Part shown: positions 1 through 33,962 of the stretch, piece after piece
Position numbering within the stretch: position 1 is the first letter of the stretch
How the letters are laid out: each line of letters starts with the position of its first letter
Notes under the pieces: model-generated
The model's input: only the letters and a program-made list of their open reading frames with translations
What the model was told of the DNA's origin: nothing
Database searches by the model: none
Translations under genes and position numbers: made by a program
Assembly (NCBI RefSeq): GCF_001625215.2
Contig: NC_030386.2
Coordinates: forward strand, 39,836,796-39,900,795
Origin: Daucus carota subsp. sativus
Lineage: Eukaryota > Streptophyta > Magnoliopsida > Apiales > Apiaceae
Length of the DNA stretch: 64,000 bases
Direction: 5' to 3'

Positions 1-906
1 ATGCTGCTCCGGGATCTGCTGAATCTGTGGCCAGGGCTGGTACAGATGCTGCTGGGCTTGTGGCCAGGGAATAATTGGCAGATGCTGCTCTGGGGTCTGC
101 TGAGTCTGTGGCCAGGGAATAATCGGGGTTTGCTGGTACAGATGCTGCTGAGCTTGTGGCCAGGGAATAATTGGCAGATGCTGCTCCGGGATCTGATGAC
201 CCTGTGGCCAGGGAATGAACGGCGTCTCCTGGTTTTGCTGGGACTGAGGCACAGAGAGAAACGACTGCGGGATCTGTGGTACTGGCCGAAACAAAGGGAC
301 AAACGGCGGGGGTTGCTGAACAACAGCTCTTGTCACACTCGATGCATTGTTGCCATGACTTCCACTATCAGTAGATGAACTTGCCCCTTGTCTCGCATTT
401 TTGGCTTTGAGAATTCTTTTCTTCACTTCATCTCTTGGAATTATGTTGTCAAGAAAATCAAACATATTTGTTTTAAGAACTGCTTCAACGATATCATTTT
501 TCTGGACAGTCCTTCTCTTGTCCTCTTCCGTGACAATCCAGGCTTGTGATGTCATATCAACTATGAACATCTCACAAGCTTTAGCAAATAATGGTAAAGC
601 TTCCTGCGCGATCATCCTAATGTCGTTATCAGCTTTCATTATGCGCTTAATTGGAGCAAGCGGGAGGCTGTGCTTCTTGAGGTCTGCACGTGTCAATTCT
701 TGCATCTGGTTAGCCCAAGATCGCCTCAGTTGTTCTCGCACGTTCTCCATATGCTGGGCTTGTGCTTGAATTTCTTGGTACACGGGCAGTACTGATACTA
801 GAACGCTGTTGGAAGCTACAACATCTGTTGTGTCAGGAAGGGGAGGGGGATTATTGCCTTCTTGATCTGCATCCTGATCAGCAATGTATTGTTGGTGACT
901 ATCCAT
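1..906 (-). CDS. NF-YC-like transcription factor, copy A (3' end outside window)
   Basis: Histone-fold subunit of the CCAAT-binding NF-Y complex, expected to pair with NF-YB in the nucleus. The minus frame is open from the ATG at 906 to the window edge (302 codons, no stop), so the C-terminus is missing here. The N-terminus holds the EIQAQAQHMENVREQLRR helix typical of the region before the fold; the histone fold follows from about residue 80 (SLPLAPIKRIMK to FDFLDNIIPRDE), then a Q/P-rich tail of PWPQ repeats. Canonical NF-YC has Arg where this protein has Pro in LPLAP. A probable leader intron runs 922-1065 (donor GTAAGT, acceptor CAG/TTGTAAAC). It is almost identical to copy D and less like B and C. 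The family is certain; DNA-binding competence is not. Confidence 0.85.
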   Translation of the reverse strand, partial: MDSHQQYIADQDADQEGNNPPPLPDTTDVVASNSVLVSVLPVYQEIQAQAQHMENVREQLRRSWANQMQELTRADLKKHSLPLAPIKRIMKADNDIRMIAQEALPLFAKACEMFIVDMTSQAWIVTEEDKRRTVQKNDIVEAVLKTNMFDFLDNIIPRDEVKKRILKAKNARQGASSSTDSGSHGNNASSVTRAVVQQPPPFVPLFRPVPQIPQSFLSVPQSQQNQETPFIPWPQGHQIPEQHLPIIPWPQAQQHLYQQTPIIPWPQTQQTPEQHLPIIPWPQAQQHLYQPWPQIQQIPEQH

Positions 907-3095
907 AATCAAAGTTTACAACTGCTGTGCCTCTGTCTGTGGTCTGTCATTCCATAAATCAATTAGGACTAATTCATTAAACCATCAATTAGTAAAGTAT
1001 CATGATCTAAAGAAAAATTATGCAAACTCATTACTATGCAAGTATTCTAAGATTGAAAAACTTACTCCACTACCAAGACTAACAAATACAACTGATCGAA
1101 GAGTTCAAAAACTTATGCCTGATTCAGAATGAAATGGGTCTCTTAAATTGAATTTTTTCCCCAGTACATGTTAAATTTACATGCAGAAGCGTACAATGAG
1201 TGTCGGTTATAATTCAAGTTAACAGAGACACCTGTATCATACATGCAGAAACGTACTATGAAAATGTCGTTACAAAATATGAAGAAGACACGTACTTCAT
1301 ACATGCAGAAGATGTACAAATAAACATGCCACCGCATCAAAGGCACAAATAAACATGCCACCGCATCAAAGGCACGTAGACACCTATTTTACATATGTAA
1401 AATACAAAAATTATAAGAAAAAAAAACTTACCGTGTGGCTAGAATAGAAAAAAGATAGTATAACTAATAGTGAAAATTAATTTATTTTTTTAAAATTTGA
1501 ATAACATGATAGCAATATTAGAATGAGAAATAAAACTCACACTGATGCATGCTTATGCAACTAAATTATGTATAAACTTAAAGAAATCACATTTTATATC
1601 ATATATATAGTATAATTTTATCACATATCATTATATTTTGTATTCTTAAATATATTGCAATATTTAAATTGTTTTCATAAATTTTTAATAAATAATTAAG
1701 ACAGACAAAGCTAAAAATAAAAAAAAATCTGAGTGATGGACTACATCTAAATATATAATTTTCTCAATAAATTGTTCATACTTCATAGTGAATATCTAAT
1801 TAAGACAATTGTGAAATATTATTAAATTTATTTTTGGTTTGTAAATTTCAAAGTCTAGAATAATATAAATTTGGATCTTCTTAAACTAATATAAATAAAT
1901 ATATTAAAAAATTCCAGAGAAGTTGCATATTTTAAATTGATTGCAATTATTTATTTTTGTTCATTATCATTATATTTTTAACATTCTTGTTTAACATTTT
2001 TTAGGTTTGGTTTAATTTGATTTAATTTTATTTTAATAAGAAATTAAATATTAAATATATTTTATTATTCCTGATAATAATTTTTGTTCTAACAAATCTG
2101 AATTGGTGGCATATAAGTTATGCATATATCTAAGAAAATAATAACCATATGTAAATAACTAGCATGTAATAAAAATATGATATATTTGATTTTGTACTCA
2201 AATTATTATCAATTAAATTTATTATGTAAATAAATTTGCACATAATGATTATTTACATATTTTCACATTATTAATAATCTAATGAATTTTAATAATAATA
2301 TCTTCCAATTAATTCTACTTAAATTTAATATAAAATAGTATAACTCGCATTGTGTTAGTATATACAAGGTTAAATCTAATTGTTATATAATTTATTAAAA
2401 AAATATAATACTAAATATTTATGTCAAGAGTTTATTTAAATATTAATTTGAAATTAGAAAATTTTGATATTGACAAAATAGATTATATATATCATTTTTT
2501 AAGAAAGAAAAATTAGTCTCAAATATCCTAAAAGTTAATATAATTCAACAGTTATATGATAAAAACTTTTATTCTTAACTTATTATTTATCTTATTTCTT
2601 TGTTAAAAATTATTATTTTCTTCTCTTGAAAAAAGAATTATTCATTTTGTAATTTTGAATAGAAAAAAATCATTACTCTAATATGATATATTGAGTGAAT
2701 TATCAAATATTAGTTTATAAATGATATAAATTAATTAGAAGTGTGATAACAGATATATATGTTTATTATCTTAAAAAAGTGGACTTATATATTTTTAAAT
2801 TAATACAATATTAACAGATTTATCTCATATAAAGAATAAACTTATGATCTAGTGACTAAGTGTTTGTTCTATTTTTTATTGTTAATTTATTAATAATATC
2901 TTTTTTCTTAAAATTATTAAGATCACTTTCGTTGTAAAAGAGGGTAAAATTTTATGAAAATAGTACGATAATATTAAAATACTATAAAATATTTTTTAAA
3001 TAATTATATACATAAAATTTTGAAAATGAAATATATAATTAAATTTTAAAATTTCAAACTTCACTTATTTAAAATTATAAACACAAACAACACAA
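907..3095. other. Promoter/leader of copy A and AT-rich spacer
   Basis: The first 250 bases hold the leader exon and intron of copy A. At about 1317-1374 a 29-bp unit (aaataaacatgccaccgcat...) is tandemly duplicated; copy D has it once. Beyond about 1,450 the sequence is very AT-rich and shows no coding potential. It aligns closely with 22,200-24,980 beside copy D, which shows that both belong to one duplicated block. Confidence 0.6.
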
Positions 3096-3879: not shown

Positions 3880-4231
3880 CACACTAATGGACATGACCTC
3901 ACAGACCAAAATCTAGATATAGGAAGCTGCACCATGGTCAGGTCCAGCTGCTGGCCTGCTGCTGAGCCTGTGGCCAAGGTATAAACGGCTTGCTGGTTAT
4001 GCAGTGACTGGGGCTGCTTCTGGTTATGCAGTGACTGAGGCTGAGGCACAGGCATAAAGGACTCCCGGATTTGTGAGTTATGTTGGGATAGAGCCTGAGG
4101 CAACCGCATAAAAGATTGCAGGATCTGAGCTTGAGGTGCAGGCAAAAAAGATTGCTGGATCTGTTGCCCCCATAAATGACAGCTGTTGGTTCGGTTGGGA
4201 ATGAGCCTGAGGCCCAAAATCGCTAAAATCA
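3880..4231 (-). pseudogene. NF-YC-like Q-rich tail fragment, cluster 1
   Basis: The minus frame encodes a Q-rich stretch (QQSFLPAPQAQILQSFM, SQIRESFMPVPQPQSLHNQ) resembling the Q/P-rich C-terminus of the NF-YC genes but of a different subtype. It joins directly onto an NF-YC N-terminal piece to its right, with no histone fold between, so an internal deletion has removed the functional domain. The frame stays open to 3861. Counterparts lie at 10,275, 17,355 and 25,275. Confidence 0.6.
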
Positions 4232-4905
4232 GTTCTGGCACAATCTCCATGTGTTGAGCTTGAGCTTCTTGGTACGTGGGTTGCTGTTGTGATGTGGATT
4301 CCGGAAGAGAAGAATAGAGCGGAGTTGTGGATACTGGAGGAGGAGGCTACATTTCTAATTTAACATGTATTGGATTTTGTTTAAGAAACACATCCCATTT
4401 CTAGATCATTCACAAGTTTTGTTAACTCTTCAATCAAATATTTGTTGGTGTTGGTGATCTTTGCAGCGTAAGTTTTTCAATCTTAAAATACTTATATAGC
4501 AATGATAACACTTGACAAGTACTATATATTAACCACTAACCACCACGGTTACATAACATGTATAAAATTAACCACCACACCACAGTGATGTATAGTATTT
4601 GTCAAGTGCTGTCATTGCTATACTAAGTATTCTAAAATTGAAAAACTCACTCTGCAAAGAACTCCAAGACCAAAAAATACTTGATTAAAGAGTTAACAAA
4701 ACTTGTGAATAATCTAGAAATTAAATGAGATGGTGTTTCTTAAATCGAATATTTGTCCATTACATGTTAAATTAGAAATTCAGCCTCCTCTTCTGGAATC
4801 CAGAGCTCAGCCCTATTCTCCTCTTTCGGAATCCACATCACAGCACCAACCCCCCATACCAAGAAGCACAAGCTCAACCTCAATATCTGGAGATTGTGCG
4901 AGAAC
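4232..4905. repeat. Outer inverted repeat of cluster 1 (NF-YC leader and N-terminus, about 300-bp arms)
   Basis: Left arm 4232-4526 and right arm 4591-4905 are reverse complements with scattered mismatches, separated by a loop of about 64 nt. The outer third of each arm encodes an NF-YC N-terminus (EAQAQ...EIV(R/P)E) pointing away from the centre; the right copy needs a one-base frame correction. The inner part matches the leader and first splice donor of the intact genes (ctcttcaatcaaatatttgttgg, then gtaagtttttcaatctt), pointing toward the centre. Each arm is therefore itself a rearranged NF-YC piece. A transcript across it would fold into a long hairpin. Confidence 0.8.
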
Positions 4906-5039
4906 GACTTAGGCGATACAAGAATTATAAATGCCTGTCCCTGCAGCATAATCATATCAGCAGCACCTCCCGAGACCATGACTATTTCATATAGAATACA
5001 TAAGAATTGTAAAACTTACAAAGCCCCGTCATTTCTTGT
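4906..5039. other. Linker between cluster parts
   Basis: Short sequence continuing the N-terminal piece (RLRRYKNYKCLSLQHNHIS in the plus frame) before it decays. In cluster 4 the CACTA element is inserted at the position equivalent to the end of this linker. Confidence 0.4.
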
Positions 5040-5407: not shown

Positions 5408-5765
5408 TTAGGACCAGCAGATGAGCTCGCCTGTTGTCCATTGTTCGTGGCCCCTAGAATTTGTCCGATCGATTGGAATCACGTGTCGGAGAATATCAAA
5501 TGTGTCTGTTCTAAAAATTTGCCGCAGCAATATCTTTTTCTGAACAGTCCGTCTTTCATCCTCTTCTGTCATGATCCAGGCTTGTAAAGTCATATAAAGT
5601 ATAAACATCTCGCAAGCTTTAGCAAATACAACTACAGTTTCCTGGACAATCATTCTGACATCATTTCCCCCTTTCATTATCCTCTTAATAGGAGCAAGTG
5701 GGAGGCTGTGCTTCTTCTGGTCTGTTGGCGTCATCTCATGCATCTGGTTAGGCCAAGATTGCCTC
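5408..5765 (-). pseudogene. NF-YC histone-fold fragment, minus arm, cluster 1
   Basis: The minus frame encodes HSLPLAPIKRIMKGGNDVRM, then FAKACEMFILYMTLQAWIMT and EEDERRTVQKK, ending in HVIPIDR. One residue (the Asp after QKK) is deleted in frame and the tail is lost. It shares the LPLAP Pro with the intact genes. The open frame also runs rightward across the loop into the antisense of the plus arm (to 5890), so any protein from it would start with meaningless antisense residues. Confidence 0.7.
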
Positions 5766-5794
5766 CACGTGCGATTTTGGCCTAACCAGATGCA
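5739..5794. repeat. Perfect hairpin core of the inner inverted repeat, cluster 1
   Basis: tgcatctggttaggccaa at 5739-5756 is the exact reverse complement of ttggcctaaccagatgca at 5777-5794. The loop is 20 nt and contains CACGTG. The imperfect arms continue outward through both histone folds for roughly 260 bp. Hand alignment of about 155 bp gave 25 mismatches, about 84% identity. Confidence 0.85.
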
Positions 5795-6052
5795 AGATTG
5801 ACTCCAGCACACCTCAAGAACCACAGACTCCTGCTTCCTCCTATTAAGAGGATTATGAAAGCAGATAATGGTATCAGGATGATTGTCCAAGAAACTAGAA
5901 CCGTATATGCTAAGACTTGCGAGATGTTTATCCTTGATATGACTTCACAAGCCTGGATCATCACAGAAGAGGACAAAAGAAGAACTGTTCAGAACAAAGA
6001 TATCGTTGAACCAATTTTTAAAACAAACTTTATTCTATGTTTGATCATCTGA
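5774..6052 (+). pseudogene. NF-YC histone-fold fragment, plus arm, cluster 1
   Basis: The plus frame encodes an 84-residue open frame from MTPAHLKNHR through LPPIKRIMKADNGIRMIV, FAKTCEMF-type helix (here YAKTCEMF), TEEDKRRTVQNKDIVEPIF and FILCLII, then a stop. It holds the first part of the histone fold but lacks the last helix and the DFLDNIIPRDE end. The same 84-codon frame is kept in clusters 2 and 4. It could be a relic or a small fold-only peptide. Confidence 0.65.
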
Positions 6053-7230
6053 TATATATCCTTCATTTCTGATTTCAACCTGTGGAAATAATGCTAAATA
6101 AATCAATATTTTGTTACTAGCTATGTCTCAAAATTATTTTAGTTTTGAAAATAAGTTATAGAACTATTTGAACCTTATAAAATTAAAAAAAAATTGAGGA
6201 ATGGATATAGGAACCTTGTAAAATGCTGGGATTGAGCTAAAGCATAGGCATAAAGAATTGCTTAAGAAAGAAATGATATTACCCAAATGCGAAAGCGGAT
6301 GAAGAGTGAACCAGCCACAATTTTCCTGGTATTCTAGCTTTCCGATTTCTGAGAGTTGAAGAATTGCAGTTGATAAGTCTTTTACGAGAGGAGAGCTGAA
6401 GAATTTAATATATAACAAGGTAAATTAGGCAATATAAAGGCTGGATGAAATGCATCAAACAACACATATAATAAAAGGAAAAGAAAAGAAGAGAACGATA
6501 GTATTACCTTATACAAGTGTTTGAATTCATGTAGAAAAACCCAATCTGCAACAATTGAACACAATCTATATAGAAAAAACTGTAACATACAGATGTTTTG
6601 ATTGAAAAGATAATAAGAACTGCCACAATTTGAAACAATCGAGGTAGAAAGGAATTATAACTAACAAATGTTTTGATTGAAGAGCTAATAGAAACTATGG
6701 ATGAAGTAGAGATGTTATGGATGAACGAGAGATGAGATGAGTTTCTTAAATAGAAGATATACCGAAAACGCGTTAGATTTGAGATGACACGTATTACATA
6801 TAAATAAAAACGTATGCAATATATGAATGACACGTATTCTTCGCATGCAAAAACTTACAAAGATATACGTCTACTAAATTTACTACATAATGACAATTTA
6901 GCTTAGCGTAACACGGTTCCACGAAATTTCCGAAATTATTAAAAATCAAAAAAATAAAAAATATGCATAATCTTGTATACATTGCTGCATTAGAAATGAC
7001 TAAATGGCAACACAAACTGAAGTTTTATTTACTTAACTTATTGATGCAAGTTACACCACTACACCACACCAGTACAGAGTAGTGATTATGACCATCATTT
7101 AACTATGACTCTAAGAAACAAATTAAAATTACATTAATAACTTGCAGACTGAGAAAAACCATTCTACAATAACACAGTTCCCATCAAGCTCTTTATTTCT
7201 GCGCCAAGTAGAATTATTAAATCCTTGCTG
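6053..7230 (-). promoter_or_regulatory. Conserved leader-like tail of cluster 1
   Basis: Noncoding and shared by all four clusters. On the minus strand it resembles the NF-YC leader: elements like ttaagaaactcatctc and ctcttcaatcaaaacatttg, the latter present twice, end in a candidate splice donor at about 6,510 (AAG/GTAATAC). If this is a promoter and first exon, a minus-strand transcript would run through both histone-fold arms and form the hairpin. Promoter activity is inference. The left part (6,160-6,420) has a long open minus frame that looks noncoding. Confidence 0.4.
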
Positions 7231-8370
7231 CTAATTCCGCTGGTCTTGTTGCTGCTCAGCTTGAAGCGATGACTGCTCTAAATTTTGCTGTCCCGGACTC
7301 TGCTCAGGTAGAATACAAGATACAGAAAAGTGCTGTGAGGTATTCTGGTCAGTAGTGTTCTCAGCTTGAGTACAAGATATAAGAGGCTGCTCCGGGGTCT
7401 GCTGGTCCAGAAGCTGCTGAGCTTGTGGCCAGGAATTAAATGACAGATGCTGCTCCGGGATCTGCTGAATCTGTGGCCAGGGAATAAACGGGGGCTGCTG
7501 GTACAGATGCTGCTGGGCTTGTGGCCAGGGAATAATTGGCAGTTGCTGCTCCGGGGTCTGCTGAGTCTGTGGCCAGGGAATAAACGAGGGCTGCTGGTAC
7601 AGATGCTGCTGAGCTTGCGGCCAGGGAATAACTGGCAGATGCTGCCCCGGGATCTGCTGAGCCTGTGGCCAGGGAATAAACGGCATCTCCTGGTTTTGCT
7701 GGGACTGAGGCTGAGGCATAGACATAAAGGATTGCGGGATCTGTGGTACTGGCTGAAACAAAGGGACAAACGGTGGGGGTTGCTGAACAACAGCTCTTGT
7801 CACACTCGATGCATTGTTGCCATGACTTCCACTATCAGTAGATGAACTTGCCCCTTGTCTCGCATTTTTGGCTTTGAGAATTCTTTTCTTCACTTCATCT
7901 CTTGGAATTATGTTGTCAAGAAAATCAAACATATTTGTTTTAAGAACTGCTTCAACGATATCCTTTTTCTGGACAGTCCTTCTCTTGTCCTCTTCCGTGA
8001 CAATCCAGGCTTGTGATGTCATATCAACTATGAACATCTCACATGCTTTAGCAAATAATGGTAAAGCTTCATGCGCGATCATCCTAATATCGTTATCAGC
8101 TTTCATGATTCTCTTAATAGGAGCAAGCGGGAGGCTGTGCTTCTTGAGGTCTGCACGCGTCAATTCTTGCATCTGGTTAGCCCAAGATCGCCTCAGTTGT
8201 TCTCGAACATTCTCCATATGCTGGGCTTGTGCTTGAATTTCTCGGTATGCGGACACTGGTACTGAAACGCTGTTGGAAGCTACAACATCTGGTGTGTCAG
8301 GAAGGGGAGGGGGATTATTGCCTGCTTGATCTGCATCCTGTTCAGCAATGAAGTGTTGGTGACTCTCCAT
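7231..8370 (-). CDS. NF-YC-like transcription factor, copy B
   Basis: Complete single-exon gene of 379 aa; I start at the ATG at 8370, not the upstream in-frame TTG. Order: N-terminus with QEL/MENVREQLRR helix (residues about 41-75), histone fold about 79-165 (LPLAPIKRIMK, FAKACEMFIVDMTSQAWIV, EEDKRRTVQKKD, FDFLDNIIPRDE), a Ser-rich linker, then five PWPQ and one SWPQ repeat (about 19 residues per period) and a Q-rich end. Expected to join NF-YB and possibly NF-YA at CCAAT boxes. A leader intron runs 8386-8535. The Arg after LPLA in canonical NF-YC is Pro. Codon frames and fold are intact, so it is likely functional as a dimer partner. Confidence 0.88.
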   Translation of the reverse strand: MESHQHFIAEQDADQAGNNPPPLPDTPDVVASNSVSVPVSAYREIQAQAQHMENVREQLRRSWANQMQELTRADLKKHSLPLAPIKRIMKADNDIRMIAHEALPLFAKACEMFIVDMTSQAWIVTEEDKRRTVQKKDIVEAVLKTNMFDFLDNIIPRDEVKKRILKAKNARQGASSSTDSGSHGNNASSVTRAVVQQPPPFVPLFQPVPQIPQSFMSMPQPQSQQNQEMPFIPWPQAQQIPGQHLPVIPWPQAQQHLYQQPSFIPWPQTQQTPEQQLPIIPWPQAQQHLYQQPPFIPWPQIQQIPEQHLSFNSWPQAQQLLDQQTPEQPLISCTQAENTTDQNTSQHFSVSCILPEQSPGQQNLEQSSLQAEQQQDQRN

Positions 8371-10274
8371 AATCAAAGTTTACAACTGCTGTGCCTCTGT
8401 CTGTTGTCTGTCATTACATTGATTCCATAAATCAGTTAGTAACTAATTCATCAAATCATCAATTAGTAAAGTATCATGATCTAAAGAAAAATTATGCAAA
8501 CTCATTACTATACAAGTATTCTAAAATAAACTTACTTTACAAAAACTACCAAGACCAACAAACAATACTAAATTGATGAATAGTTAACGAAACTTATGCA
8601 GGATTCAGAATGAAATGTGCCACTTATATTGAATTTTTTCTCCGGTACATGTTAAATTTACATGCAGAAACGTACAATACGTGTTCAATTATAATTCAAG
8701 GAGACTGTACACGGAAGACACCTGGATCATACATGCAGAAACGTACTATAAAAATGTCACAACAAAATATGAAGAAGACACGTACTTCATACATGCGAAA
8801 ATGTACAAATAGAAATGCCACCGCATAATACATACAAGGCACATATCTTATATATACAACAAAAAAAATAATATATGAATGATACATTTATTTATTTATG
8901 TAAAATAGTAAAATTATAAGAAAAAAGATACACAAAGTAAAAGTAATGTGTAAACGCAAAAACTTACTGTAGGGCTATAATAATAATAATAAAAAAGATA
9001 GTATAATCAATAGTGATAATTAAGTTCTTTCTTAGAATTTGAATAACATGGTAGGAATATTTGAATAGAAAATAAAACACTCACACTAATGCATGCTTAA
9101 TTGACCAACATTATAATTATTATTAAAATATTTAAATTGTTTTCATATATTTTTAATAGATAATTAAGACAAACTAAGTTAAAAATATACAAAATCTAGA
9201 GTGATGCACTACATATAAATAAATAATTTTCTCAATAAATTGTTCATAGTGAATGTTTAATCAAAATAACTGTGAACTATAATTAAATTTATTTTGGTTT
9301 GTAAATTTTAAAGTCTAGAATAATATAAATTTGGACCATCTTAAGATAATATAAATAAATATATTCAAAAAGCCAGAGAAGTTGCATATTTTAAATTGAT
9401 TGCAATTATTTATTTTTGTACATTTTCAGTATATTTTTTAATAAAAAATTGAAGCTAAACAGTATTTCTTGTTTAACAGTTTTTGGATTTGAATTAATTT
9501 TAGTTTAAATATAAAGTATATTTAATTATTTCTGATAATAATTTTGGTTCTAACAAATCTAAATTGGTGGCCTATAAGTTATGCATATATTTAAGAAAAA
9601 AAAAATCATATATAAATAACTAGCATGTAATAAAATATGATGTATTTGATTTAGTTCTCAAATTACAATCAATTAAATTTATTAGGCAAATAAGTTTTCT
9701 CATAATGATTACTTACATATTTTAACATTATTAATAATCTTTATGAATTTTGTTAATAATATATTCCAACTATTTCTATTTAAATTTAATATAAAATAGT
9801 ATAACTGGCTTTGTGTTAGTATATACAAGGTTAAATCTAATTGTTATATTATTTATAAATAAAAATATAATACTAATTAGTTATGTCAAAATTTTATTTA
9901 AATATTGATTAAATATTATTATACAATATAGTCAAATATTAATTTGAAAGTATAAAATTTTAAAATTCAAAAAATAGATTTATATATATTTTTTTTAAGA
10001 AAAAAACTAGTCTCAAATATCTTAAAAAGTTAATATATTGTAATAATTATATGATAAAAGTTTTTATTCTCAACTTGTTATTTATCACCTTTTTTTGTTA
10101 AAAATTAATTATTTTCTTCTCTTGAAAAAAGAATTAATCATTTCTTAATTTTGAATAGAAAAAAATCATTACTCTAGACACTCTATTTAAATCAGTGTAA
10201 ATCATAAGTCATTATTTTAAATTTTCTAAATAGTCTGTAACATAATTCATGTAACTTATGATACACCGTACAGG
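8371..10274. other. Leader of copy B and AT-rich spacer
   Basis: Holds the leader exon and intron of copy B up to about 8,700 and then AT-rich noncoding sequence, homologous to but more diverged from the spacers of copies A and D. No gene or transposon end is visible. Confidence 0.5.
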
Positions 10275-10640
10275 GGACTGCACACACTAATGGACGACCT
10301 CACATATATAGGAAACTGCACCAGGGTCAGCGTCCAGCTGCTGCTGAGCTGTGGCCAAGGTATAAACGGCTTGCTGGTTATGCAGTGACTGGGGCTGCTG
10401 CTGGTTATGTAGTGACTGAGGCTGAGGCACCGGCATAAAGGATTCCCGGATCTGTGGTCTTGGCATAAATGCCAGTTGTGAGCTATGTTGGGATAGAGCC
10501 TGAGACACCGGCATAGGAGATTGCAGGATCTGAGGTCATGACATAAATGGCAGCTGTTGGGAAATAGCTTGAGGTGCAGGCAAAAAAGATTGTTGGATCT
10601 GTGCCGGACATAAATGACAGCTGTTGGTTCCGCTGGGATC
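10275..10640 (-). pseudogene. NF-YC-like Q-rich tail fragment, cluster 2
   Basis: Same Q-rich subtype as in cluster 1 (RESFMPVPQPQSLHNQQQPQ) with several frame changes. One frame covers 10,287-10,514 and a second 10,536-10,640. Confidence 0.55.
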
Positions 10641-11305
10641 GTTCTGGTACAATCTCCATATGCTGAGCTTGAGCTTCTTGGTACGTGGGTTGCTGTTGTG
10701 ATGTGGATTCCGAAAGAGAAGAATAGAGCAGAGTTGTGGATATATACTGGAGGAGGAGGCTACATTTCTATTTAACATGTATTGGATTTTGTTTAAGAAA
10801 CACATCCTATTTCTAGATCATTCACAAGTTTTGTTTAACTCTTCAATCAAATATTTGTTGGTTTTGGTGATCTTTGCAGAGTAAGTTTTTCAATCTTAGA
10901 ATACTTGTATAGCAATGATAACACCTGACAAGTACTATATATTAACCACCACGGTGATATAACATGTATAAAATTAACCATCACAATGATATATAGTATT
11001 TGTCAAGTGCTATCATTGCTATACTAAGTATTCTAAAATTGAAAAATTTACTCTGCAAAGAACTCCAAGACCAAAAAATACTTGATTGAAGAGTTAACAA
11101 AACTTGTGAATGATCTCGAAATTAAATGAGATGTGTTTCTTAAATAGAAAATTTGTCCATGACATGTTAAATTAGAAATGCAGCCTCCTCTTCCGGTATC
11201 TAGAGCTCAGCCCTATTCTCCTCTTTCAGAATCCACATCACAGCACCAACCCCCCATACCAAGAAGCACAAGCTCAACCTCAATATTCGGAGATTGTGCG
11301 AGAAT
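10641..11305. repeat. Outer inverted repeat of cluster 2
   Basis: Left arm 10,641-10,938 and right arm 10,992-11,305 carry the same leader and N-terminal pieces as cluster 1, with a loop of about 53 nt. The splice-donor-like gtaagtttttcaatctt lies in the left arm at about 10,880. Confidence 0.75.
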
Positions 11306-11439
11306 GACTTAGGCGATACAAGAATTATAAATGCCTGTCATAATCATATCAGCAGCAACTGCTTGAGACCATGACTATTGCATATAAATACATAAGAATT
11401 GTAAAACATACAAAGCCCAGACATTTCTTGTGAAATCTT

Positions 11440-11699: not shown

Positions 11700-12056
11700 T
11701 AGGACCAACAGATGAGCTCGCCTGTTGTCCATTGTTCGTGGCCCCTAGAATTTGTCCGATCGATTGGAATCATGTTTGGAGAATATCAAATGTATCTGTT
11801 CTAAAAATTTGCCGCAGCAATATCTTTTTCTGAACAGTCCGTCTTTCATCCTCTTCTGTGATGATCCAGGCTTGTGAAGTCATATCAAGTATAAACATCT
11901 CGCAATCTTTAGCAAATACAATTACAGTTTCTTGGACAATCATTCTAACATCATTTGCCCCTTTCATTATCCTCTTAATAGGAGCAAGTGGGAGGCTGTG
12001 CTTCTTCTGGTCTGTTGGCGTCATTTCATGCATCTGATTAGACCAAGATTGCCTCT
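11700..12056 (-). pseudogene. NF-YC histone-fold fragment, minus arm, cluster 2
   Basis: Encodes LPLAPIKRIMKGANDVRMIV, then FAKDCEMFILDMTSQAWIIT and the same in-frame loss of Asp after QKK. The frame ends early at FDILQT, so this copy is shorter than in clusters 1 and 4. Confidence 0.65.
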
Positions 12057-12084
12057 ACGTGCGATATTGGCCTAACCAGATGCA
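12029..12084. repeat. Hairpin core of the inner inverted repeat, cluster 2
   Basis: Same head-to-head centre as cluster 1, with two mismatches in the 18-bp core (tgattagacc against ggcctaacc) and a loop changed to ctacgtg. Confidence 0.75.
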
Positions 12085-12342
12085 AGATTGACTCCAGCAG
12101 ACCTCAAGAACCACAGACTCCTGCTTGCTCCTATTAAGAGGATTATGAAAGCAGATAATGGTATTAGGATGATTGTCCACGAAACTAGAACCGTATTTGC
12201 TAAGACTTGTGAGATGTTTATCCTTGATATGACTTCACAAGCCTGGATCATCACAGAAGAGGACAAAAGAAGAACTGTTCAGAACAAAGATATCATTGAA
12301 CCCATTTTTAAAACAAACTTTATTCTATGTTTGATAATCTGA
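12064..12342 (+). pseudogene. NF-YC histone-fold fragment, plus arm, cluster 2
   Basis: An 84-residue open frame as in cluster 1, with LLLAPIKRIMKADNGIRMIV and FAKTCEMFILDMTSQAWIIT, ending FILCLII. Most differences from the cluster 1 copy are single substitutions that keep the frame open. Confidence 0.65.
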
Positions 12343-13558: not shown

Positions 13559-14596
13559 CTAAATTTTGCTGGTCAGTAGTGTTCTCAGCTTGAGTAAAAG
13601 ATATAAGAGGCTGCTCCGGGGTCTGTTGGCCCAGAAGCTGCTGAGCTTGTGGCCAGGCATTAAATGACAGATGTTGTTCCGGGATCTGCTGAATCTGTGG
13701 CCAGGGAATAAACGGGGGCTGCTGGTACAGATGCTGCTGGGCTTGTGGCCAGGGAATAATTGGCAGATGCTGCTCCTGGGCTGCTGAGTCTGTGGCCAGG
13801 GAATAAACGGGGGCTGCTGGTACAGATGCTGCTGAGCTTGTGGCCAGGGAATAACTGGCAGATGCTGCCCCGGGATCTGCTGAGCCTGTGGCCAGGGAAT
13901 AAACGGCATCTCCTGGTTTTGCTGGGACTGAGGCTGAGGCACAGACATAAAGGATTGCGGGATCTGTGGTACTGGCTGAAACATAGGGACAAACGGTGGG
14001 GGTTGCTGAACAACAGCTCTTGTCACACTCGATGCATTGTTGCCTTGAGTTCCACTATTAGTAGATGAACTTGCCCCTTGTCTCGCATTTTTGGCTTTGA
14101 GAATTCTTTCCTTCACTTCATCTCTTGGAATTATGTTGTCAAGAAAATCAAACATATTTGTTTTAAGAACTGCTTCAACGATATCACTTTTCTGGACAGT
14201 CCTTCTCTTGTCCTCTTCTGTGACAATCCAGGCCTGTGATGTCATATCAACTATGAACATCTCACATGCTTTAGCAAATAATGGTAAAGCTTCATGCGCG
14301 ATCATCCTAATATCGTTATCAGCTTTCATGATTCTCTTAACAGGAGCAAGCGGGAGGCTGTGCTTCTTGAGGTCTGCACGCGTCAATTCTTGCATCTGGT
14401 TAGCCCAAGATCGCCTCAGTTGTTCTCGAACATTCTCCATATGCTGGGCTTGTGCTTGAATTTCTCGGTATGCGGGCACTGGTACTGAAACGCTGTTGGA
14501 AGCTACAACATCTGGTGTGTCAGGAAGCGGAGGGGGATTATTGCCTGCTTGATCTGCATCCTGATCAGCAATGTAGTGTTGGTGACTCTCCATCAT
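13559..14596 (-). CDS. NF-YC-like transcription factor, copy C (frameshifted tail)
   Basis: Start at the double ATG at 14,596; 345 aa. The N-terminus and histone fold (LPLAPVKRIMK to FDFLDNIIPRDE) are intact and close to copy B. In the tail, after three PWPQ repeats, a one-base deletion near 13,770 (ctcctgggctgctg against ctccggggtctgctg in B) shifts the frame, so the last roughly 75 residues (PRSSICQLFPGHKPSS...) are out of register. A segment near the end that B has is also missing. The leader intron, 14,609-15,514, contains an hAT-type element. The fold could still dimerise; the tail function is probably lost. Confidence 0.8.
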   Translation of the reverse strand: MMESHQHYIADQDADQAGNNPPPLPDTPDVVASNSVSVPVPAYREIQAQAQHMENVREQLRRSWANQMQELTRADLKKHSLPLAPVKRIMKADNDIRMIAHEALPLFAKACEMFIVDMTSQAWIVTEEDKRRTVQKSDIVEAVLKTNMFDFLDNIIPRDEVKERILKAKNARQGASSSTNSGTQGNNASSVTRAVVQQPPPFVPMFQPVPQIPQSFMSVPQPQSQQNQEMPFIPWPQAQQIPGQHLPVIPWPQAQQHLYQQPPFIPWPQTQQPRSSICQLFPGHKPSSICTSSPRLFPGHRFSRSRNNICHLMPGHKLSSFWANRPRSSLLYLLLKLRTLLTSKI

Positions 14597-14726
14597 CAAA
14601 GTTTACAACTCTGTGCCTCTGTCTGTTGTGACGTTGTCTGTCATAGCATAAATCTATTAGTAACTATTTCATTAAACCATCAATTAGTAAAGTATCATAA
14701 TCTAAAGAAGATTATGCAAACTCATT

Positions 14727-17354: not shown

Positions 17355-17551
17355 ACACGGCCAAGGTATAAACTGCTTGCTGGTTATGCAGTGACTGAGG
17401 CTGCTGCTGGTTATGCAGTTACTAAGCTCGAGGCACAGGCATAAAGGATTCCCGGATCTGAGGCATTAAAGATTGTGGATTCTGTGCCGGACATAAATGA
17501 CAGATGTCGGTTCTGCTGGGAATGAGCCCGAGGCCCAAGATCGCTAAAGTT
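17355..17551 (-). pseudogene. NF-YC-like Q-rich tail fragment, cluster 3
   Basis: Shortest of the four Q-rich pieces; it keeps the QSLHNQ-type repeats but lacks the middle part seen in clusters 1 and 4, and is frameshifted. Confidence 0.5.
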
Positions 17552-18234
17552 GTTCTCGCACAATCTCCATATGCTGAGCTTGAGCTTGAGCTTCTTGGTA
17601 TGTCGGTTGCTGCTGTGATGTGGATTCTGAAAGAGGAGAATAGAGCGGAGTTGTGGATACTAAGGAGGACACTGCATCTCTAATTTAACATCTATTGGAT
17701 TTTGTTTCAGGAACACATCTCATTTCTAGATCATTCACAAGTTTTGTGAGCTCTTCAATCAAATATTTGTTGGTCTTGGTGATCTTTGCAGAGTAAGTTT
17801 TTCAATCTTAGAATACTTGTATAGCAATGATAGCACTTGAAAAGTACTATATATTAACCACCACGGTGATATATAGTACTTGACATGTATAAAATTAACC
17901 ACCACAGTAATATATAGTATTTGTCAAGTGCTATGGTTGCTATACAAGTATTCTAAGATTGAAAAATCTACTCTGCAAAGACCACCAAGACCAACAAGAC
18001 CAACAAATATTTGATTGAAGAGCTGATAAAACTTGTGAATGATCTTAGATATGAGATGTATTTCTTAATTAAGTAGAATATTTGTCCGATACATGTTAAA
18101 TTAGAAATGCAGCCTCCTTTTCCAGTATCCACAGCTCAGCTCTATTCTATTCTTTCGGAATCCACATCTCAGCACCAGCCCCCAATACCCAGAAGCACAA
18201 GCTCAACCTCAATATATGGAGATTGTGCGAGAAC
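17552..18234. repeat. Outer inverted repeat of cluster 3
   Basis: Left arm about 17,552-17,851, right arm about 17,913-18,234. Same leader and N-terminal composition as the other clusters. The left arm contains ctttgcagagtaagtttttcaatc, that is, the leader splice donor. Confidence 0.75.
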
Positions 18235-18384
18235 AACTTAGGCGATACAATAATTATAAATGTTTTTCCCTGCAACATAATCATATCAGCAGCAACTGCC
18301 TGAGACCATGACTATTGCATATAGAATACATAAGAATTGTAAAACCTACAAAGCCTTGTCATTTCTTGTGAAATCTTCTCCTAC

Positions 18385-18679: not shown

Positions 18680-18985
18680 CGATTCATCTCTCGGAATCGC
18701 GTGTTCGAGAATATCAAATGTACCTGTTCTAAAAATTTGTCATAGCAATATCTTTTTTCTGAACAGAGTTTCTTTTATCCTCCTCTGTGATGATCCAGGC
18801 TTGTGAAGTCATATCAAGTATAAACATCTCGCAAGCTTTAGCAAATACAACTACAGTTTTCTGGACAATCATTCTCACATCATTTTCCCCTTTCATTATC
18901 CTCTTAAGAGGAGCAAGTGGGAGGCTGTACTTCTTCTGGTCTGTTGGGGTCATTTCATGCATCTGGTTAGCCCAAGATTGCCTCC
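18680..18985 (-). pseudogene. NF-YC histone-fold fragment, minus arm, cluster 3
   Basis: Encodes KKYSLPLAPLKRIMKGENDV, FAKACEMFILDMTSQAWIIT and EEDKRNSVQKKDIA. It keeps the Asp after QKK that clusters 1, 2 and 4 lack, and then frameshifts. The open frame also runs across the loop, as in cluster 1. Confidence 0.65.
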
Positions 18986-19013
18986 ACGTGCGATTTTGGC
19001 CTAACCAGATGCA
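18959..19013. repeat. Hairpin core of the inner inverted repeat, cluster 3
   Basis: tgcatctggttagcccaa (18,959-18,976) pairs with ttggcctaaccagatgca (18,996-19,013) with one mismatch; the loop again contains CACGTG. Confidence 0.8.
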
Positions 19014-19229
19014 AGATTGACTCCAGCAGACCTCAAGAACTACAGACTCCCGCTTGCTCCTATTAAGAGGATTATGAAAGCAGATAATGGTATTAGGATG
19101 ATTGTCCAAGAAACTAGAACCGTATTTGCTAAGACTTGCGAGATGTTTATCCTTGATATGACTTCACAAGCCTGGATTATCACAGAAGAGGACAAAAGAA
19201 GAACTGTTCAGAAAAAAGATATCGTTTGA
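18990..19229 (+). pseudogene. NF-YC histone-fold fragment, plus arm, cluster 3
   Basis: Same fold fragment as the other clusters, but a deletion after KKDIV brings an early stop, giving 70 instead of 84 residues. Confidence 0.6.
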
Positions 19230-20343: not shown

Positions 20344-21576
20344 CTAATTCTGCTGATCCTGTTGCTGCTCAGCTTGAAGCGATGACTGCTCTAAATTTTG
20401 CTGTTCCGGACTCTGCTCAGGTAGAATACAAGATACAGGAAAGTGCTGCGAGGTATGCTGGTCAGTAGTCTGTTCAGCCTGAGTAGAAGATATAAGAGCC
20501 TGCTCCGGGGTCTGCTGGTCCAGAAGCTGCTGAGCTTGTAGCCAGGAATTAAATGACAGATGCTGTTCCGGGATCTGCTGAGTCTGTGGCCAGGGAAATA
20601 ACGACGGCTGCTGGTCCTGATGGTGCTGAGTTTGTGGCCAGGGAATAAATGAGAGATGCTGCTCCGGGATCTGCTGAATCTGTGGCCAGGGCTGGTACAG
20701 ATGCTGCTCGGCTTGTGGCCAGGGAATAATTGGCAGATGTTGCTCCGGGGTCTGCTGAGTCTGTGGCCAGGGAATAATCGGGGTTTGCTGGTACAGATGC
20801 TGCTGAGCTTGTGGCCAGGGAATAAGTGGCAGATGCTGCTCCGGGATCTGATGACCCTGTGGCCAGGGAATGAACGGCGTCTCCTGGTTTTGCTGGGACT
20901 GAGGCTGAGGCACAGACAGAAACGGTTGCGGGATCTGTGGTACTGGCCGAAACAAAGGGACAAACGGCGGGGGTTGCTGAACAACAGCTCTTGTCACACT
21001 CGATGCATTGTTGCCATGACTTCCACTATCAGTAGATGAACTTGCCCCTTGTCTCGCATTTTTGGCTTTGAGAATTCTTTCCTTCAATTCATCTCTTGGA
21101 ATTATGTTGTCAAGAAAATCAAACATATTTGTTTTAAGAACTGCTTCAACGATATCATTTTTCTGAACGGTCCTTCTCTTGTCCTCTTCCGTGACAATCC
21201 ATGCTTGTGCTGTGATATCAACTATGAACATCTCACAAGCTTTAGCAAATAATGGTAAAGCTTCCTGCGCGATCATCCTAATGTCGTTATCAGCTTTCAT
21301 TATGCGCTTAATTGGAGCAAGCGGGAGGCTGTGCTTCTTGAGGTCTGCACGCGTCAATTCTTGCATCTCGTTAGCCCAAGATCGCCTCAGTTGTTCTCGC
21401 ACGTTCTCCATATGCTGGGCTTGTGCTTGAATTTCTTGGTACACGGGCAGTACTGGTACTAGAACGCTGTTGGAAGCTACAACATCTGGTGTGTCAGGAA
21501 GGGGAGGGAGGGGAGGGGGATTATTGCCTGCTTGATCTGCATCCTGATCAGCAATGTATTGTTGGTGACTATCCAT
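20344..21576 (-). CDS. NF-YC-like transcription factor, copy D
   Basis: Longest intact copy, 410 aa, single coding exon from the ATG at 21,576. Histone fold from about residue 82 (SLPLAPIKRIMK, FAKACEMFIVDITAQAWIV, RTVQKNDIVEAVLKT, FDFLDNIIPRDE). The tail has seven PWPQ repeats plus a diverged SWLQ unit, against five and one in copy B. One extra PPLP unit lies near residue 25. A leader intron runs 21,592-21,735, and part of the leader is duplicated upstream. It is nearly identical to copy A wherever both can be compared. Predicted nuclear NF-Y subunit. Confidence 0.88.
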   Translation of the reverse strand: MDSHQQYIADQDADQAGNNPPPLPPLPDTPDVVASNSVLVPVLPVYQEIQAQAQHMENVREQLRRSWANEMQELTRADLKKHSLPLAPIKRIMKADNDIRMIAQEALPLFAKACEMFIVDITAQAWIVTEEDKRRTVQKNDIVEAVLKTNMFDFLDNIIPRDELKERILKAKNARQGASSSTDSGSHGNNASSVTRAVVQQPPPFVPLFRPVPQIPQPFLSVPQPQSQQNQETPFIPWPQGHQIPEQHLPLIPWPQAQQHLYQQTPIIPWPQTQQTPEQHLPIIPWPQAEQHLYQPWPQIQQIPEQHLSFIPWPQTQHHQDQQPSLFPWPQTQQIPEQHLSFNSWLQAQQLLDQQTPEQALISSTQAEQTTDQHTSQHFPVSCILPEQSPEQQNLEQSSLQAEQQQDQQN

Positions 21577-21685
21577 AATCAAAGTTTACAACTGCTGTGC
21601 CTCTGTCTGTGCTCTGTCATTCAACAAATCAATTAGAACTAATTCATTAAACCATCAATTAGTAAAGTATCATGATCTAAAGAAA

Positions 21686-21969: not shown

Positions 21970-23126
21970 ATTTTTTCCCCGGTACATGTTAAATTTACAT
22001 GCAGAAGCATACAATGAGTGTCGGTTATAATTGAAGTTAACAGAGACACCTGTATCATACATGCAGAAACGTACTATAAAAATGTCGTTACAAAATATGG
22101 AGAAGACACGTACTTCATACATGCAGAAGATGTACAAACAAACATGCCACCGCATAAAAGGCACGTAGACACCTATTTTACCTATGTAAAATACAAAAAA
22201 TATAAGAAAAAAAACTTACCGTATGGCTAGAATAGAAAAAAGATAGTATAACTAATAGTGATAATTAATTTATTTTTTTAAAATTTGAATAACATGATAG
22301 CAATATTAGAATGAGAAATAAAACACTCACACTGATGCATGCTTATGCAACTAAATTTTGTATAAACTAAAAGAAATCACATTTTATATCATATATATAG
22401 TATAATTTTATCAAATATCATTATATTTTGTATTCTTAAATATATTGCAATACTTAAATTGTTTTCATAAATTTTTAATAAATAATTAAGACAGACAAAT
22501 CTAAAAATAAATAAAAATCTGAGTGATGGACTACATCTAAATATATAATTTTCTCAATAAATTGTTCATAGTGAATATCTAATTAAGATAATTGTGAAAT
22601 ATCACTAAATTTATTTTTGGTTTGTAAATTTCGAAGTCTAGAATAATATAAATTTGGATCTTCTTAAACTAATATAAATAAATATAATAAAAAATCCAGA
22701 GAAGTTGCATATTTTAAATTGATTGCAATTATTTATTTTTGTTCATTATCATTATATTTTTAACATTCTTTAGGTTTGGTTTAGTTTGATTTAATTTTAT
22801 TTTAATATGAAATTAAATATTAAACATATTTTATTATTTCTGATAATAATTTTTGTTCTAACAAATCTCTATTGGTGGCATAAAAGTTATGCATATATCT
22901 AAGAAAATAGGTGGCATATAAGTTATGCATATATTTAAGAAAATAATAACCATATATAAATAACTAGCATGTAATAAAAATATGATATATTTGATTTTGT
23001 GCTCAAATTATTATCAATTAAATTTATTATGTAAATAAATTTGCTCATAATGATTATTTACGTATTTTCACATTATTAATAATCTTATGAATTTTAATAA
23101 TAATATCTTCCAATTAATTCTACTTA
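21970..23126. other. AT-rich spacer of copy D, left part
   Basis: Noncoding and matching 1,160-2,330. A 36-bp tandem duplication (ggtggcata...ttatgcatatat...aagaaaat) lies at about 22,873-22,945. Confidence 0.5.
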
Positions 23127-23135
23127 AATTTAATA

Positions 23136-25274: not shown

Positions 25275-25642
25275 GACTGCACACACTAATGGACATGACC
25301 TCATAGACCAAAATCTAGATATAGGAAGCTGCACCATGGTCCGCAGGTCCAGCTGCTGGCCTGCTGCTGAGCCTGTGGCCAAGGTATATATAAACGGGTT
25401 GCTGGTTATGGAGTGACTGGGGCTGCTGCTGGTTATGCAGTGACTGAGGCTGAGGCACAGGCATAAAGGACTCCCGGATTTGTGAGTTATGTTGGGATAG
25501 AGCCTGAGGCAACCGCATAAAAGATTGCAGGATCTGAGCTTGAGGTGCAGGCAAAAAAGATTGCTGGATCTGTTGCCCCGACATAAATGACAGCTGTTGG
25601 TTCGGTTGGGAATGAGCTTGAGGCCCAAAATCGCTAAAGTCA
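25275..25642 (-). pseudogene. NF-YC-like Q-rich tail fragment, cluster 4
   Basis: Nearly identical to cluster 1 (QQSFLPAPQAQILQSFMRLP, RESFMPVPQPQSLHNQQQPQ), with small frame differences. Confidence 0.6.
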
Positions 25643-26320
25643 GTTCTGGCACAATCTCCATGTGTTGATCTTGAGCTTCTTGGTACGTGGGTTGCTGTTG
25701 TGATGTGGATTCCGGAAGAGAAGAATAGAGCGGAGTTGTGGATACTGGAGGAGGAGGCTACATTTCTAATTTAACATGTATTGGATTTTGTTTAAGAAAC
25801 ACATCCCATTTCTAGATCATTCACAAGTTTTGTTAACTCTTCAATCAAATATATGTTGGTGTTGGTGATCTTTGCAGAGTAAGTTTTTCAATCTTAAAAT
25901 ACTTATATAGCAATGATAACACTTGACAAGTATTATATATTAACCACTAACCACCACGGTGACATAACATGTATAAAATTAACCACCACACCACAGTGAT
26001 GTATAGTATTTGTCAAGTGCTATCATTGCTATATATACTAAGTATTCTAAAATTGAAAAACTCACTCTGCAAAGAACTCCAAGACCAAAAAATACTTGAT
26101 TGAAGAGTTAACAAAACTTGTGAATGATCTAGAAATTAAATGAGATGGTGTTTCATAAATCGAATATATGTCCATTACATGTTAAATTAGAAATTCAGCC
26201 TCCTCTTCCGGTATCCAGAGCTCAGCCCTATTCTCCTCTTTCGGAATCCACATCACAGCACCAACCCCCCATACCAAGAAGCACAAGCTCAACCTCAATA
26301 TCCGGAGATTGTGCGAGAAC
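25643..26320. repeat. Outer inverted repeat of cluster 4
   Basis: Left arm 25,643-25,936, right arm 26,002-26,320. Nearly identical to cluster 1. Both arms are complete: the CACTA element lies just outside the right arm. Confidence 0.78.
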
Positions 26321-26784
26321 GACTTAGGCGATACAAGAATTATAAATGCCTGTCCCTGCAGCATAATCATATCAGCAGCACCTCCTGAGACCATGACTAT
26401 TGCATATAGAATACGTAAGAATTGTAAAACTTACAAAGCCCCGTCATTTCTTGTGAAAATCTTCTCCTACCACTACGCCATATATGGCCTTCAACAACAT
26501 CAAAAAAATGATGCAATAACCCCCAAATATGTTGCCATAGCCCGAAAATTGGCTATTGCAACATAAAATTTAAGTTGCTTTTTTCGATGTTGCCCTAGGC
26601 TTCTATTGCAACATAATGGTTACCTACTGCAACACGGGCTTTTCTGTCACAATAGACCGCTATTGCAACATCTGACTACCTTATAGCAACAAATATTTTA
26701 TGTTACGTTAGACCTCCTTATTTTAAAAAAAAACGGGACCCATTTGTGGGTCCCACATGTGGGCCCCACTTCTGGGTCCCCAGT

Positions 26785-32051: not shown

Positions 32052-32405
32052 TTAGGACCAGCAGATGAGCTCGCCTGTTGTCCATTGTTCGTGGCCCCTA
32101 GAATTTGTCCGATCGATCGGAATCACGTGTCGGAGAATATCAAATGTATCTGTTCTAAAAATTTGCCGCAGCAATATCTTTTTCAGAACAGTCCGTCTTT
32201 CATCCTCTTCTGTCATGATCCAGGCTTGTAAAGTCATATCAAGTATAAACATCTCGCAAGCTTTAGCAAATACAACTACAGTTTCCTGGACAATCATTCT
32301 GACATCATTTCCCCCTTTCATTATCCTCTTAATAGGAGCAAGTGGGAGGCTGTGCTTCTTCTGATTTACTAGCGTCATTTCATGCATCTGGTTAGCCCAA
32401 GATTG
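32052..32405 (-). pseudogene. NF-YC histone-fold fragment, minus arm, cluster 4
   Basis: Encodes HSLPLAPIKRIMKGGNDVRM, FAKACEMFILDMTLQAWIMT and RHVIPIDR, with the same in-frame Asp loss as clusters 1 and 2. Open for 111 residues from an ATG at 32,387. Confidence 0.7.
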
Positions 32406-32438
32406 CCTCCTTGTGCGATTTCGGCCTAATCAGATGCA
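32383..32438. repeat. Hairpin core of the inner inverted repeat, cluster 4
   Basis: Same centre as the other clusters, with a few mismatches (ggcctaatcagatgca) and cttgtg replacing the CACGTG loop. Confidence 0.75.
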
Positions 32439-32696
32439 AGATTGACTCCAGCAGACCTCAAGAACCACAGACTCCCTCTTGCTCCTATTAAGAGGACTAT
32501 GAAAGCAGATAATGGTATTAGGATGATTGTCCAAGAAACTAGAACCGTATTTGCTAAGACTTGCGAGATGTTTATCCTTGATATGACTTCACAAGCCTGG
32601 ATTATCACAGAAGAGGACAAAAGAAGAACTGTTCAGAAAAAAGATATCGTTGAACCAATTTTTAAAACAATCTTTATTCTATGTTTGATAATCTGA
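32425..32696 (+). pseudogene. NF-YC histone-fold fragment, plus arm, cluster 4
   Basis: The 84-residue frame is preserved (LPLAPIKRTMKADNGIRMIV, TEEDKRRTVQKKDIVEPIF, FILCLII). Confidence 0.65.
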
Positions 32697-33785
32697 TATA
32701 TATCCTTCATTTCTGATTTCAACCTGTGGAAATAATGCTAAATAAATCAATATTTTGCTACTACCTATGTCTCAAAATTATTTTAGTTTTGAAAATAAGT
32801 TATAGAACTATTTGAACCTAATAAAATTCAAAAAATTGAAGAATGGATTTAGGAACCTTGTAAAATGCTGGGACTGGGACTGAAGCACGGGCATAAAGGA
32901 TTGCTTAAGAAAAAACTAATATTACCGAAATTTGAAAACGGATAAACAGTGAACCAGCCACAAGTTTCCTGGTATTCTAGCTTTCCGATTCCTGAGAGTT
33001 GAAGAATTGCAGTTGATAAGTCTTCTCCGAGAGGAGAGTCCGAATATAAGGTAAATTAGGCAAATACAAAGGCCAAATGAAATGCATCAAACAACACATG
33101 CAATAAAAGGGGAAAAAAAGAAGAGAAAGATAGTATTACCTTATACAAGTGTTTGAATTCATGTAGAAAAACTCAATCTGCAACAATTAAACACGATTTA
33201 TATAAAAAAAATTGTAACGGACAGATGTTTTGGTTGAAAAGATAATAGGAACTGCCACAATTTGAAACAATTGAGATTGAAAGGAATTATAATCAACAAA
33301 TGTTTTGATTGAAGAGCTAATAGAAACTATGGATGAAGCAGAGGTGTTATGGATGAACCAGAGATGAGATGAGTTTCTTAGAGATGAGATGAGTTTCTTA
33401 AATAAAAGATATACCGAATACGTGTTACATTTGAGATGACACGTGTTACATACAAATAAAAATGTATGCAATATATGAATGACACGTATTCTCCGCATGC
33501 AAAAACTTACAAAGATATGCGTCTCCTAAATTTATTACATAATGACATTTTAGCTTAGCGTAACACGGTTCCACGAAACTTCCGAAACTATTAAAAATCA
33601 AAAATAAATAAATATGCATAATCTTGTATTGCTGCATTAGAAATGACTAAATGGCAACACAAACTGAAGTTCATTTACTTAACTTATTGATGCAAGTTAC
33701 ACCAGTACACAGAAACGACCATGACCCTCATTTAACTATGTGCTTTATTCTTATTGCAGGACTCTAAAAAACAAATTTAAATTAA
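32697..33785 (-). promoter_or_regulatory. Conserved leader-like tail of cluster 4
   Basis: Homologous to the other tails; carries a 20-bp tandem duplication, gagatgagatgagtttctta, at about 33,361-33,400. Noncoding. Confidence 0.4.
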
Positions 33786-33962
33786 AATAATTTCACAAGC
33801 TTGAGCAAATAATGGTACAGTCTCATGGGCGATCATACTAAATCGTTATCAGCTTTCATTATGCGCTTAATTGGAACAAGTGGGAGGCTGTGCTTCCTGA
33901 GGTCTGCAGGCGTCAATTTTTGCATTTGGTTAGCCCAAGATCGCCTAACCCTAAAAAGGATC
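33786..33962 (-). pseudogene. NF-YC remnant that closes the array (copy E)
   Basis: The minus strand encodes only the first part of the histone fold (RRSWANQMQKLTPADLRKHS, LPLVPIKRIMKADND, then a frameshift and FAQAC). It sits exactly where a fifth gene would be expected after the cluster 4 tail. Homology stops abruptly on both sides, so this is a breakpoint of the array. Confidence 0.75.

Follow-up and report, generated by a model that had tools for sequence, protein, structure and literature searches.

Inverted NF-YC histone-fold repeats in the carrot genome: probably a decayed head-to-head pseudogene pair carried along by tandem duplication

In carrot (Daucus carota subsp. sativus), NF-YC genes arrayed on C6 are accompanied by inverted repeats, each made of two NF-YC histone-fold sequences that lie head to head. 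We consider it probable that these repeats are a decayed head-to-head pair of NF-YC pseudogenes that has been carried passively. Two old NF-YC paralogues would have come to lie head to head; both would have decayed, with mainly their histone-fold parts left as an inverted pair; and the pair would then have multiplied passively as part of the tandem unit by which NF-YC genes were amplified on C6 and partly on C8. The analysis concerned a window of 64,000 nucleotides (C6:39836796-39900795, contig NC_030386.2) and searches of a genome of 441,086,747 bases in 11 contigs. The hairpins are called h6a to h6f on C6 and h8a and h8b on C8, and each has an S arm and an A arm. Feature positions are collected in Table 1.

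Table 1. NF-YC hairpins, genes and related features, in window coordinates
Feature	Position	Strand	Description
Core of h6c	5739-5756 / 5777-5794		exact 18 bp around a 20-nt loop (5757-5776)
A arm of h6c	5771..6028	+	NF-YC codons ~64-150; tblastn/blastn, palindrome
S arm of h6c	5473..5765	-	NF-YC codons ~60-160; same strand as the C6 NF-YC genes
Hairpin copy h6d	11795..12318		96% to h6c; palindrome 11820-12293, 82.8%
Hairpin copy h6e	18724..19226		94% to h6c; palindrome 18748-19222, 82.5%
Hairpin copy h6f	32149..32670		96% to h6c; palindrome 32151-32669, 78.2%
Second inverted repeat	4219..4917		palindrome 77.4%; NF-YC 5' region
Second inverted repeat, copy	10639..11317		palindrome and genome search
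Second inverted repeat, copy	17540..18246		palindrome and genome search
Second inverted repeat, copy	25630..26332		palindrome and genome search
NF-YC gene gA	1..912	-	runs off the window start; genome shows the frame open to a stop
NF-YC gene gB, intact	7234..8376	-	ORF, 381 aa from the listed TTG; first in-frame ATG at 8370
NF-YC gene gC	13562..14599	-	open; past codon ~273 the frame differs from that of gB
NF-YC gene gD, intact	20347..21582	-	ORF, 412 aa from the listed TTG; 82% to gB
NF-YC histone-fold fragment	33780..33946	-	no inverted partner in the palindrome lists
Segment between gB and h6c	6050..6980		C8 homologues precede truncated NF-YC copies; mostly 86-87% identity

The hairpin that was originally predicted, h6c, is present. 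Alignment of the sequence with its own reverse complement gives an inverted repeat of NF-YC histone-fold sequence at 5504-6028, with 80.1% identity over 532 alignment columns (E 2.2e-129), in which ungapped arms of 199 nt (5535-5733 and 5799-5997) are 82% identical; the exact core and short loop that had been described were found at its centre. NF-YC similarity runs on the plus strand in 5771-6027 and on the minus strand in 5765-5473, so the N-terminal ends face the loop. The A arm is sense on the plus strand and hence antisense within a minus-strand transcript. A frame through the S arm (5411-5890, minus) matches Pfam CBFD_NFYB_HMF (PF00808) with an E value of 5.5e-13, and weak NF-YC similarity extends from this arm to about position 5276. 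The RNA of 5430-6052, minus strand, has a minimum free energy of -341.5 kcal/mol, far below the mean of -159 for 20 shuffled sequences, none of which was as low (z -20). The predicted duplex is about 262 bp at 80%, which corrects the originally given identity of about 84% over 155 bp of arm and bears out the estimate of about 260 bp for a read-through transcript, and h6c thus has the long, self-complementary stretch, predicted to form duplex RNA, that is expected of a hairpin-siRNA locus.

The three further copies of the pair in the window are also real. Their longest exact cores, sought in about 250 bases round each centre, are 8 bp with a 40-nt spacer in h6d and h6f and 13 bp with a 30-nt spacer in h6e. 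The original prediction placed the arrangement in all four clusters; this holds for the window, but the genome search located the hairpin at no fewer than eight places (C6, six; C8, two), all of them in two NF-YC arrays, and the four window copies are only part of these. Folding energies of the eight copies lie between -279 and -355 kcal/mol, whichever strand is folded. As h8a and h8b lie inside a 99.2% repeat on C8, the number of independent copies is at most seven. Because h8b is a near-copy of h8a, it was excluded from the arm counts (pairing identity, 21-mers, two-sided changes, C-to-T changes, G.U pairs and conversion); it was included in the individual folds, the tree, the consensus fold and the codon-position and frame-damage comparisons.

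The genes next to the hairpins are under protein constraint in their histone fold, as the dN/dS between gB and gD, computed over the histone-fold segment, is 0.17. The Pfam domain PF00808 is found in gB with an E value of 1.2e-17. Beyond the arrays, the closest NF-YC match is C6:29160860-29161609, at 54%. The array on C8 has eleven NF-YC copies with a truncation near codon 74; in 6 of the 10 spacings, the start-to-start distance is about 2.6 kb. Each of these truncated copies (C8:2935001-2985000) has an ATG at the junction; ten have open frames of 214-246 aa and one has a frame of 132 aa, and the glutamine-rich end lies largely in another frame. A second open frame runs through the C-terminal repeat of the NF-YC genes (13562-14599, 7278-7790 and 20391-20984, minus strand), and gC and C8 copies end in that alternative frame. 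Two other elements were seen in the window. One, between window hairpins three and four, is an open frame at 28617-29657 (minus) that carries tnp2-family transposase and transposase-associated domains; the other is a 170-bp inverted repeat of 95% (23124-23293 and 24042-24211) whose arms are about 750 bp apart and which may be a young element bounded by terminal inverted repeats.

To examine the origin of the arms, we used a tree that combined 16 arms with the four C6 genes, eleven C8 copies and one fragment. In it, all eight S arms cluster together (support 0.989), as do all eight A arms (0.940), and both clades split identically into h6c-h6f and h6a/h6b/h8. These matching splits indicate that one inverted arrangement is older than its copies. 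The hairpins are carried by the tandem homology of long blocks, as well as by the 99.2% repeat on C8, and by sequence comparison the pair arose once and was then duplicated along with the tandem unit. The S and A arms group together (support 0.994), apart from the C6 genes, to which they are 73-84% identical, and dS to gB ranges from 0.63 to 1.59 in the six arms compared. Judged from these distances, the arms are old NF-YC paralogues and not fresh copies of the adjacent genes, and the proposed origin by inverted duplication of the neighbouring genes is not supported. A close match to the target would be expected of a new MIR gene. The NF-YC arms differ from such a gene in their distance from the intact C6 genes: they are neither derived from nor closest to the putative target, as the arms of a MIR gene born by inverted duplication would be. 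They also differ in that a search of window positions 1-34000 gave no match to an Rfam family at gathering score.

Differences from gB fall mainly at third codon positions (13, 8 and 26 at positions 1, 2 and 3 in the S arm of h6c, and 11, 8 and 25 in its A arm), in a test confined to the first 76 alignment codons because the S arms are frameshifted beyond. Such coding-like divergence indicates that the partners were NF-YC paralogues evolving as genes before they decayed. One could therefore suppose that the arms continue to serve as exons of divergent NF-YC genes that encode protein, the more so since the S arms of h6c, h6e and h6f are each crossed by an open frame (160, 126 and 111 aa, respectively). 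However, the bias is gone between the recent copies h6c and h6e (8, 3 and 6 in the S arms; 3, 2 and 3 in the A arms), no N-terminal part adjoins in the same orientation, and compared with gB the frame is damaged by an indel or a stop in 15 of the 16 arms, the exception being the S arm of h6a; for some arms, part of the bases counted as damage are alignment ends. We regard continued coding as very unlikely. Between the two hairpin clades, the A arms do retain a third-position bias, with 8, 9 and 20 differences for h6c and h8a (p 0.004) and 7, 7 and 22 for h6e and h8a, whereas the S arms show none (10, 12 and 11, and 11, 11 and 13, respectively). This suggests that after the clades split, the plus-strand A sequence either remained coding for longer than S or was replaced from a coding copy. 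The asymmetry makes the order of events less simple than the passive-decay explanation states it.

An alternative for the spread of the inverted repeat is a transposable element or MITE that had captured NF-YC sequence. The array is indeed rich in palindromes: 15 were listed at E 1e-20 in a 94-kb stretch of C6, and 14 of these lie within 39825640-39869464, the array and its edge; in 48.7 kb of non-array background, made up of 18.7 kb to the left of the C6 array plus window positions 34001-64000, we found one palindrome at E 1e-10, of 263 bp and 73%. There is also a true MITE nearby, at C6:39825640-39826198 (L010:8840-9398), which is 90% palindromic and has relatives of about 75% behind C8 NF-YC copies. 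Searched in the same way as the hairpin, this element gave 1240 first-look candidates, of which 40 were scored, and at least 80 matches on many contigs. The hairpin, by contrast, lacks such dispersal, since the places found (at least eight) are all in the two NF-YC arrays, and we reject a MITE origin for it as exceedingly unlikely. Each unit carries a second inverted repeat of about 0.7 kb, which the original prediction left unmentioned and which was also considered as a MITE. That assignment was wrong: its outer arms correspond to about codons 45-68 and its inner arms to about -420 to -120 upstream of the genes, and all 36 of the 36 genome matches listed fall in the two arrays. The fact that the true MITE shows as dispersed in the same search means that the method can tell a MITE from this second repeat. 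In the unit of h6a, the promoter halves of the second repeat point outward to their own coding halves, and in the window copies they are swapped.

The original prediction took recurrence to mean that the hairpin had been kept. As the copies are homologous by tandem duplication, the relevant comparison is between the pairing of an arm with its own partner and its pairing with the partners in other copies. Among h6c-h6f, own-arm identity is 0.8066 and cross-copy identity 0.8051, with 8 of 24 pairings as good, so the persistence of the arrangement needs no selection, and none on pairing was seen by this comparison among the four window copies. For h6a, h6b and h8a the values are 0.8080 and 0.8095 (4 of 6 pairings as good). 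Only when all seven hairpins are taken together does own pairing (0.807) exceed cross pairing (0.7925), with 84 of 5040 pairings as good, and this excess is due to the split between the two clades. Between the clades, two-sided changes occur at 9 of 240 sites against an expectation of 3.2, and 4 of the 9 keep the pair. At 20 diagnostic sites, the S arm of h6a has the A-arm base at 6 of the 17 covered, in comparison with 0-2 in the other S arms, which points to arm-to-arm conversion within h6a. We prefer such conversion as the reason for the clade-level excess; compensation could also explain it. In the consensus fold, 13 of 201 pairs show a two-sided change that keeps the pair, and the covariation term contributes -0.42 of -256.6 kcal/mol.

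The rate difference between hairpin and flank is small. Variable sites among the window copies number 49 of 502 in the hairpins and 119 of 882 in a 0.9-kb flank (Fisher p 0.049); in six pairwise tests, h6c/h6f is clear (p 0.0017) and h6e/h6f borderline (0.049), while h6c/h6d shows a non-significant difference in the other direction, with more change in the hairpin than in the flank. In h6a (L011:1563-2155), ten successive mismatches are all of the G.U-pairing type in the gene-sense transcript, which gives an unbroken predicted helix of 105 bp; the G.U totals of h6a are even (13 and 13), and the run of ten was spotted after the fact. The G.U polarity in the other hairpins is 22:14, 19:11, 18:11, 12:13, 24:11 and 17:19, counts that are not independent.

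Whether such hairpins could act on NF-YC mRNAs depends in part on how closely their 21-mers, scored on mismatch count alone, resemble the genes. An exact 21-mer of an intact C6 gene occurs in 3 of 14 arms (one each in the S arms of h6e and h6f and three in the A arm of h6e), and none of the 14 arms has one of gD. Exact 21-mers of the two C8 copies tested also occur in 3 of the 14 arms, namely 5 in the A arm of h6c, 10 in that of h6d and 15 in that of h6e. Within 3 mismatches of gB are 113 of 244 21-mers in the A arm of h6c, 125 of 244 in h6d, 129 of 217 in h6e and 134 of 238 in h6f. Matches to NF-YC loci elsewhere have no fewer than 2 mismatches for C6:29160860 and no fewer than 5 for a locus on C4 and another on C5. 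If siRNAs are made, they would therefore fit the hairpins best, some C8 copies next and the C6 genes in part. Any read-through transcript would fold into the imperfect duplex described above, which may be diced into mixed siRNAs; these would act mostly on the hairpin copies themselves, through local methylation, and at most weakly on intact NF-YC mRNAs. The hairpin copies are thus candidates for small-RNA production, and a role as regulators is putative.

A stronger version is that the arms form a working hairpin-siRNA locus, transcribed, diced and lowering intact NF-YC mRNAs, comparable to the inverted CHS cluster of soybean that acts on CHS7/8. A fold far beyond chance in h6c, with low energies for all eight copies on both strands, would fit this, as would the near matches to gB in about half of the window A-arm 21-mers, the NF-YC-derived second inverted repeat over the 5' region in the units, the slightly lower variability of the hairpins than of one flank, and the excess of two-sided changes between clades. 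Against it are the scarcity of exact matches, with only 1-3 21-mers of an intact C6 gene in each of the three arms that have any and none of gD, and the lack of own-partner pairing being maintained among the window copies. We judge a working silencer unlikely, and we are more doubtful of an extended form in which the two NF-YC hairpins of the tandem units, one derived from the histone fold and the other from the promoter and first codons, would yield mixed siRNAs that damp the amplified NF-YC copies at both mRNA and promoter, so that co-amplification of target and silencer would balance dose. A promoter in front of h6c, suggested by the C8 homologues of the segment between gB and h6c, is not claimed, because the C8 copies may be unexpressed and the segment is just as much 3' flank to the preceding gene.

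We also asked what CG loss says about methylation of the arms. C-to-T changes affect 39 of 97 CG and 11 of 102 CHG sites in the S arms, and 23 of 98 and 7 of 97 in the A arms, with sites counted once per copy and thus non-independent. For CpG observed/expected, the four window hairpins have values of 0.36-0.48, compared with 0.94 for one flank and 0.65-0.96 for the histone folds of the genes. However, the N- and C-terminal parts of gB are equally low (0.40 and 0.35), the flank shows a comparable CG-to-CHH ratio of change (for example, 6 of 43 and 12 of 184), and the arms are older. We therefore conclude nothing on a methylation signature from the CG loss.

The nearest described case that we found is an inverted pseudogene pair in rice, with a 185-nt duplex at 83% to which small RNAs were mapped and no small RNAs detected from the parent gene (PMC2708354). 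Both pairs consist of two adjacent decayed paralogues in inverted orientation, and the carrot pair may, by analogy, make local siRNAs as the rice pair does; the rice loop is 1,283 nt long, whereas that of carrot is 20 nt and the arrangement occurs in eight copies. At the soybean I locus, the inverted CHS1-3-4 cluster is described as silencing its paralogues CHS7/8 in trans (PMC3804491, PMC6710647). It shares with carrot the inverted, repeated family copies beside intact paralogues and a copy number altered by recombination between copies; its cluster spans 27 kb, with siRNAs and silencing measured, in contrast to a decayed carrot unit of 0.5 kb. The small-RNA precursors of an S locus, long hairpins with proto-miRNA features and mixed products, are reported to be capable of repressing genes, and the same source describes little evidence of substantial effects of proto-miRNA populations generally, at least by the canonical route (PMC13128112). 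Like these, the carrot hairpin is long and imperfect and could in principle yield mixed small RNAs against several paralogues. Unlike these three systems, in which small RNAs, silencing or expression with repression of targets have been reported, the carrot hairpin is known from its sequence. It also resembles plant MIR genes that arose by inverted duplication in having an inverted duplication of gene or pseudogene sequence (PMC3237417). The original prediction knew of no report of such a hairpin for NF-YC and, in agreement with it, no report of an NF-YC inverted-repeat hairpin with siRNA was found among the papers covered by our literature search.

Further analogues are OGI in persimmon and the PAI inverted repeat in Arabidopsis. 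Inverted pseudogene pairs are thought to be raw material for hairpin siRNAs and some plant miRNAs. In carrot, a single event is represented by eight copies of graded age, which occupy two arrays and are linked to intact paralogues. Should this set be transcribed, it could show when dicing starts and whether silencing co-amplifies with its targets; otherwise, it would be an example of tandem duplication producing a recurrence that can be mistaken for conservation.
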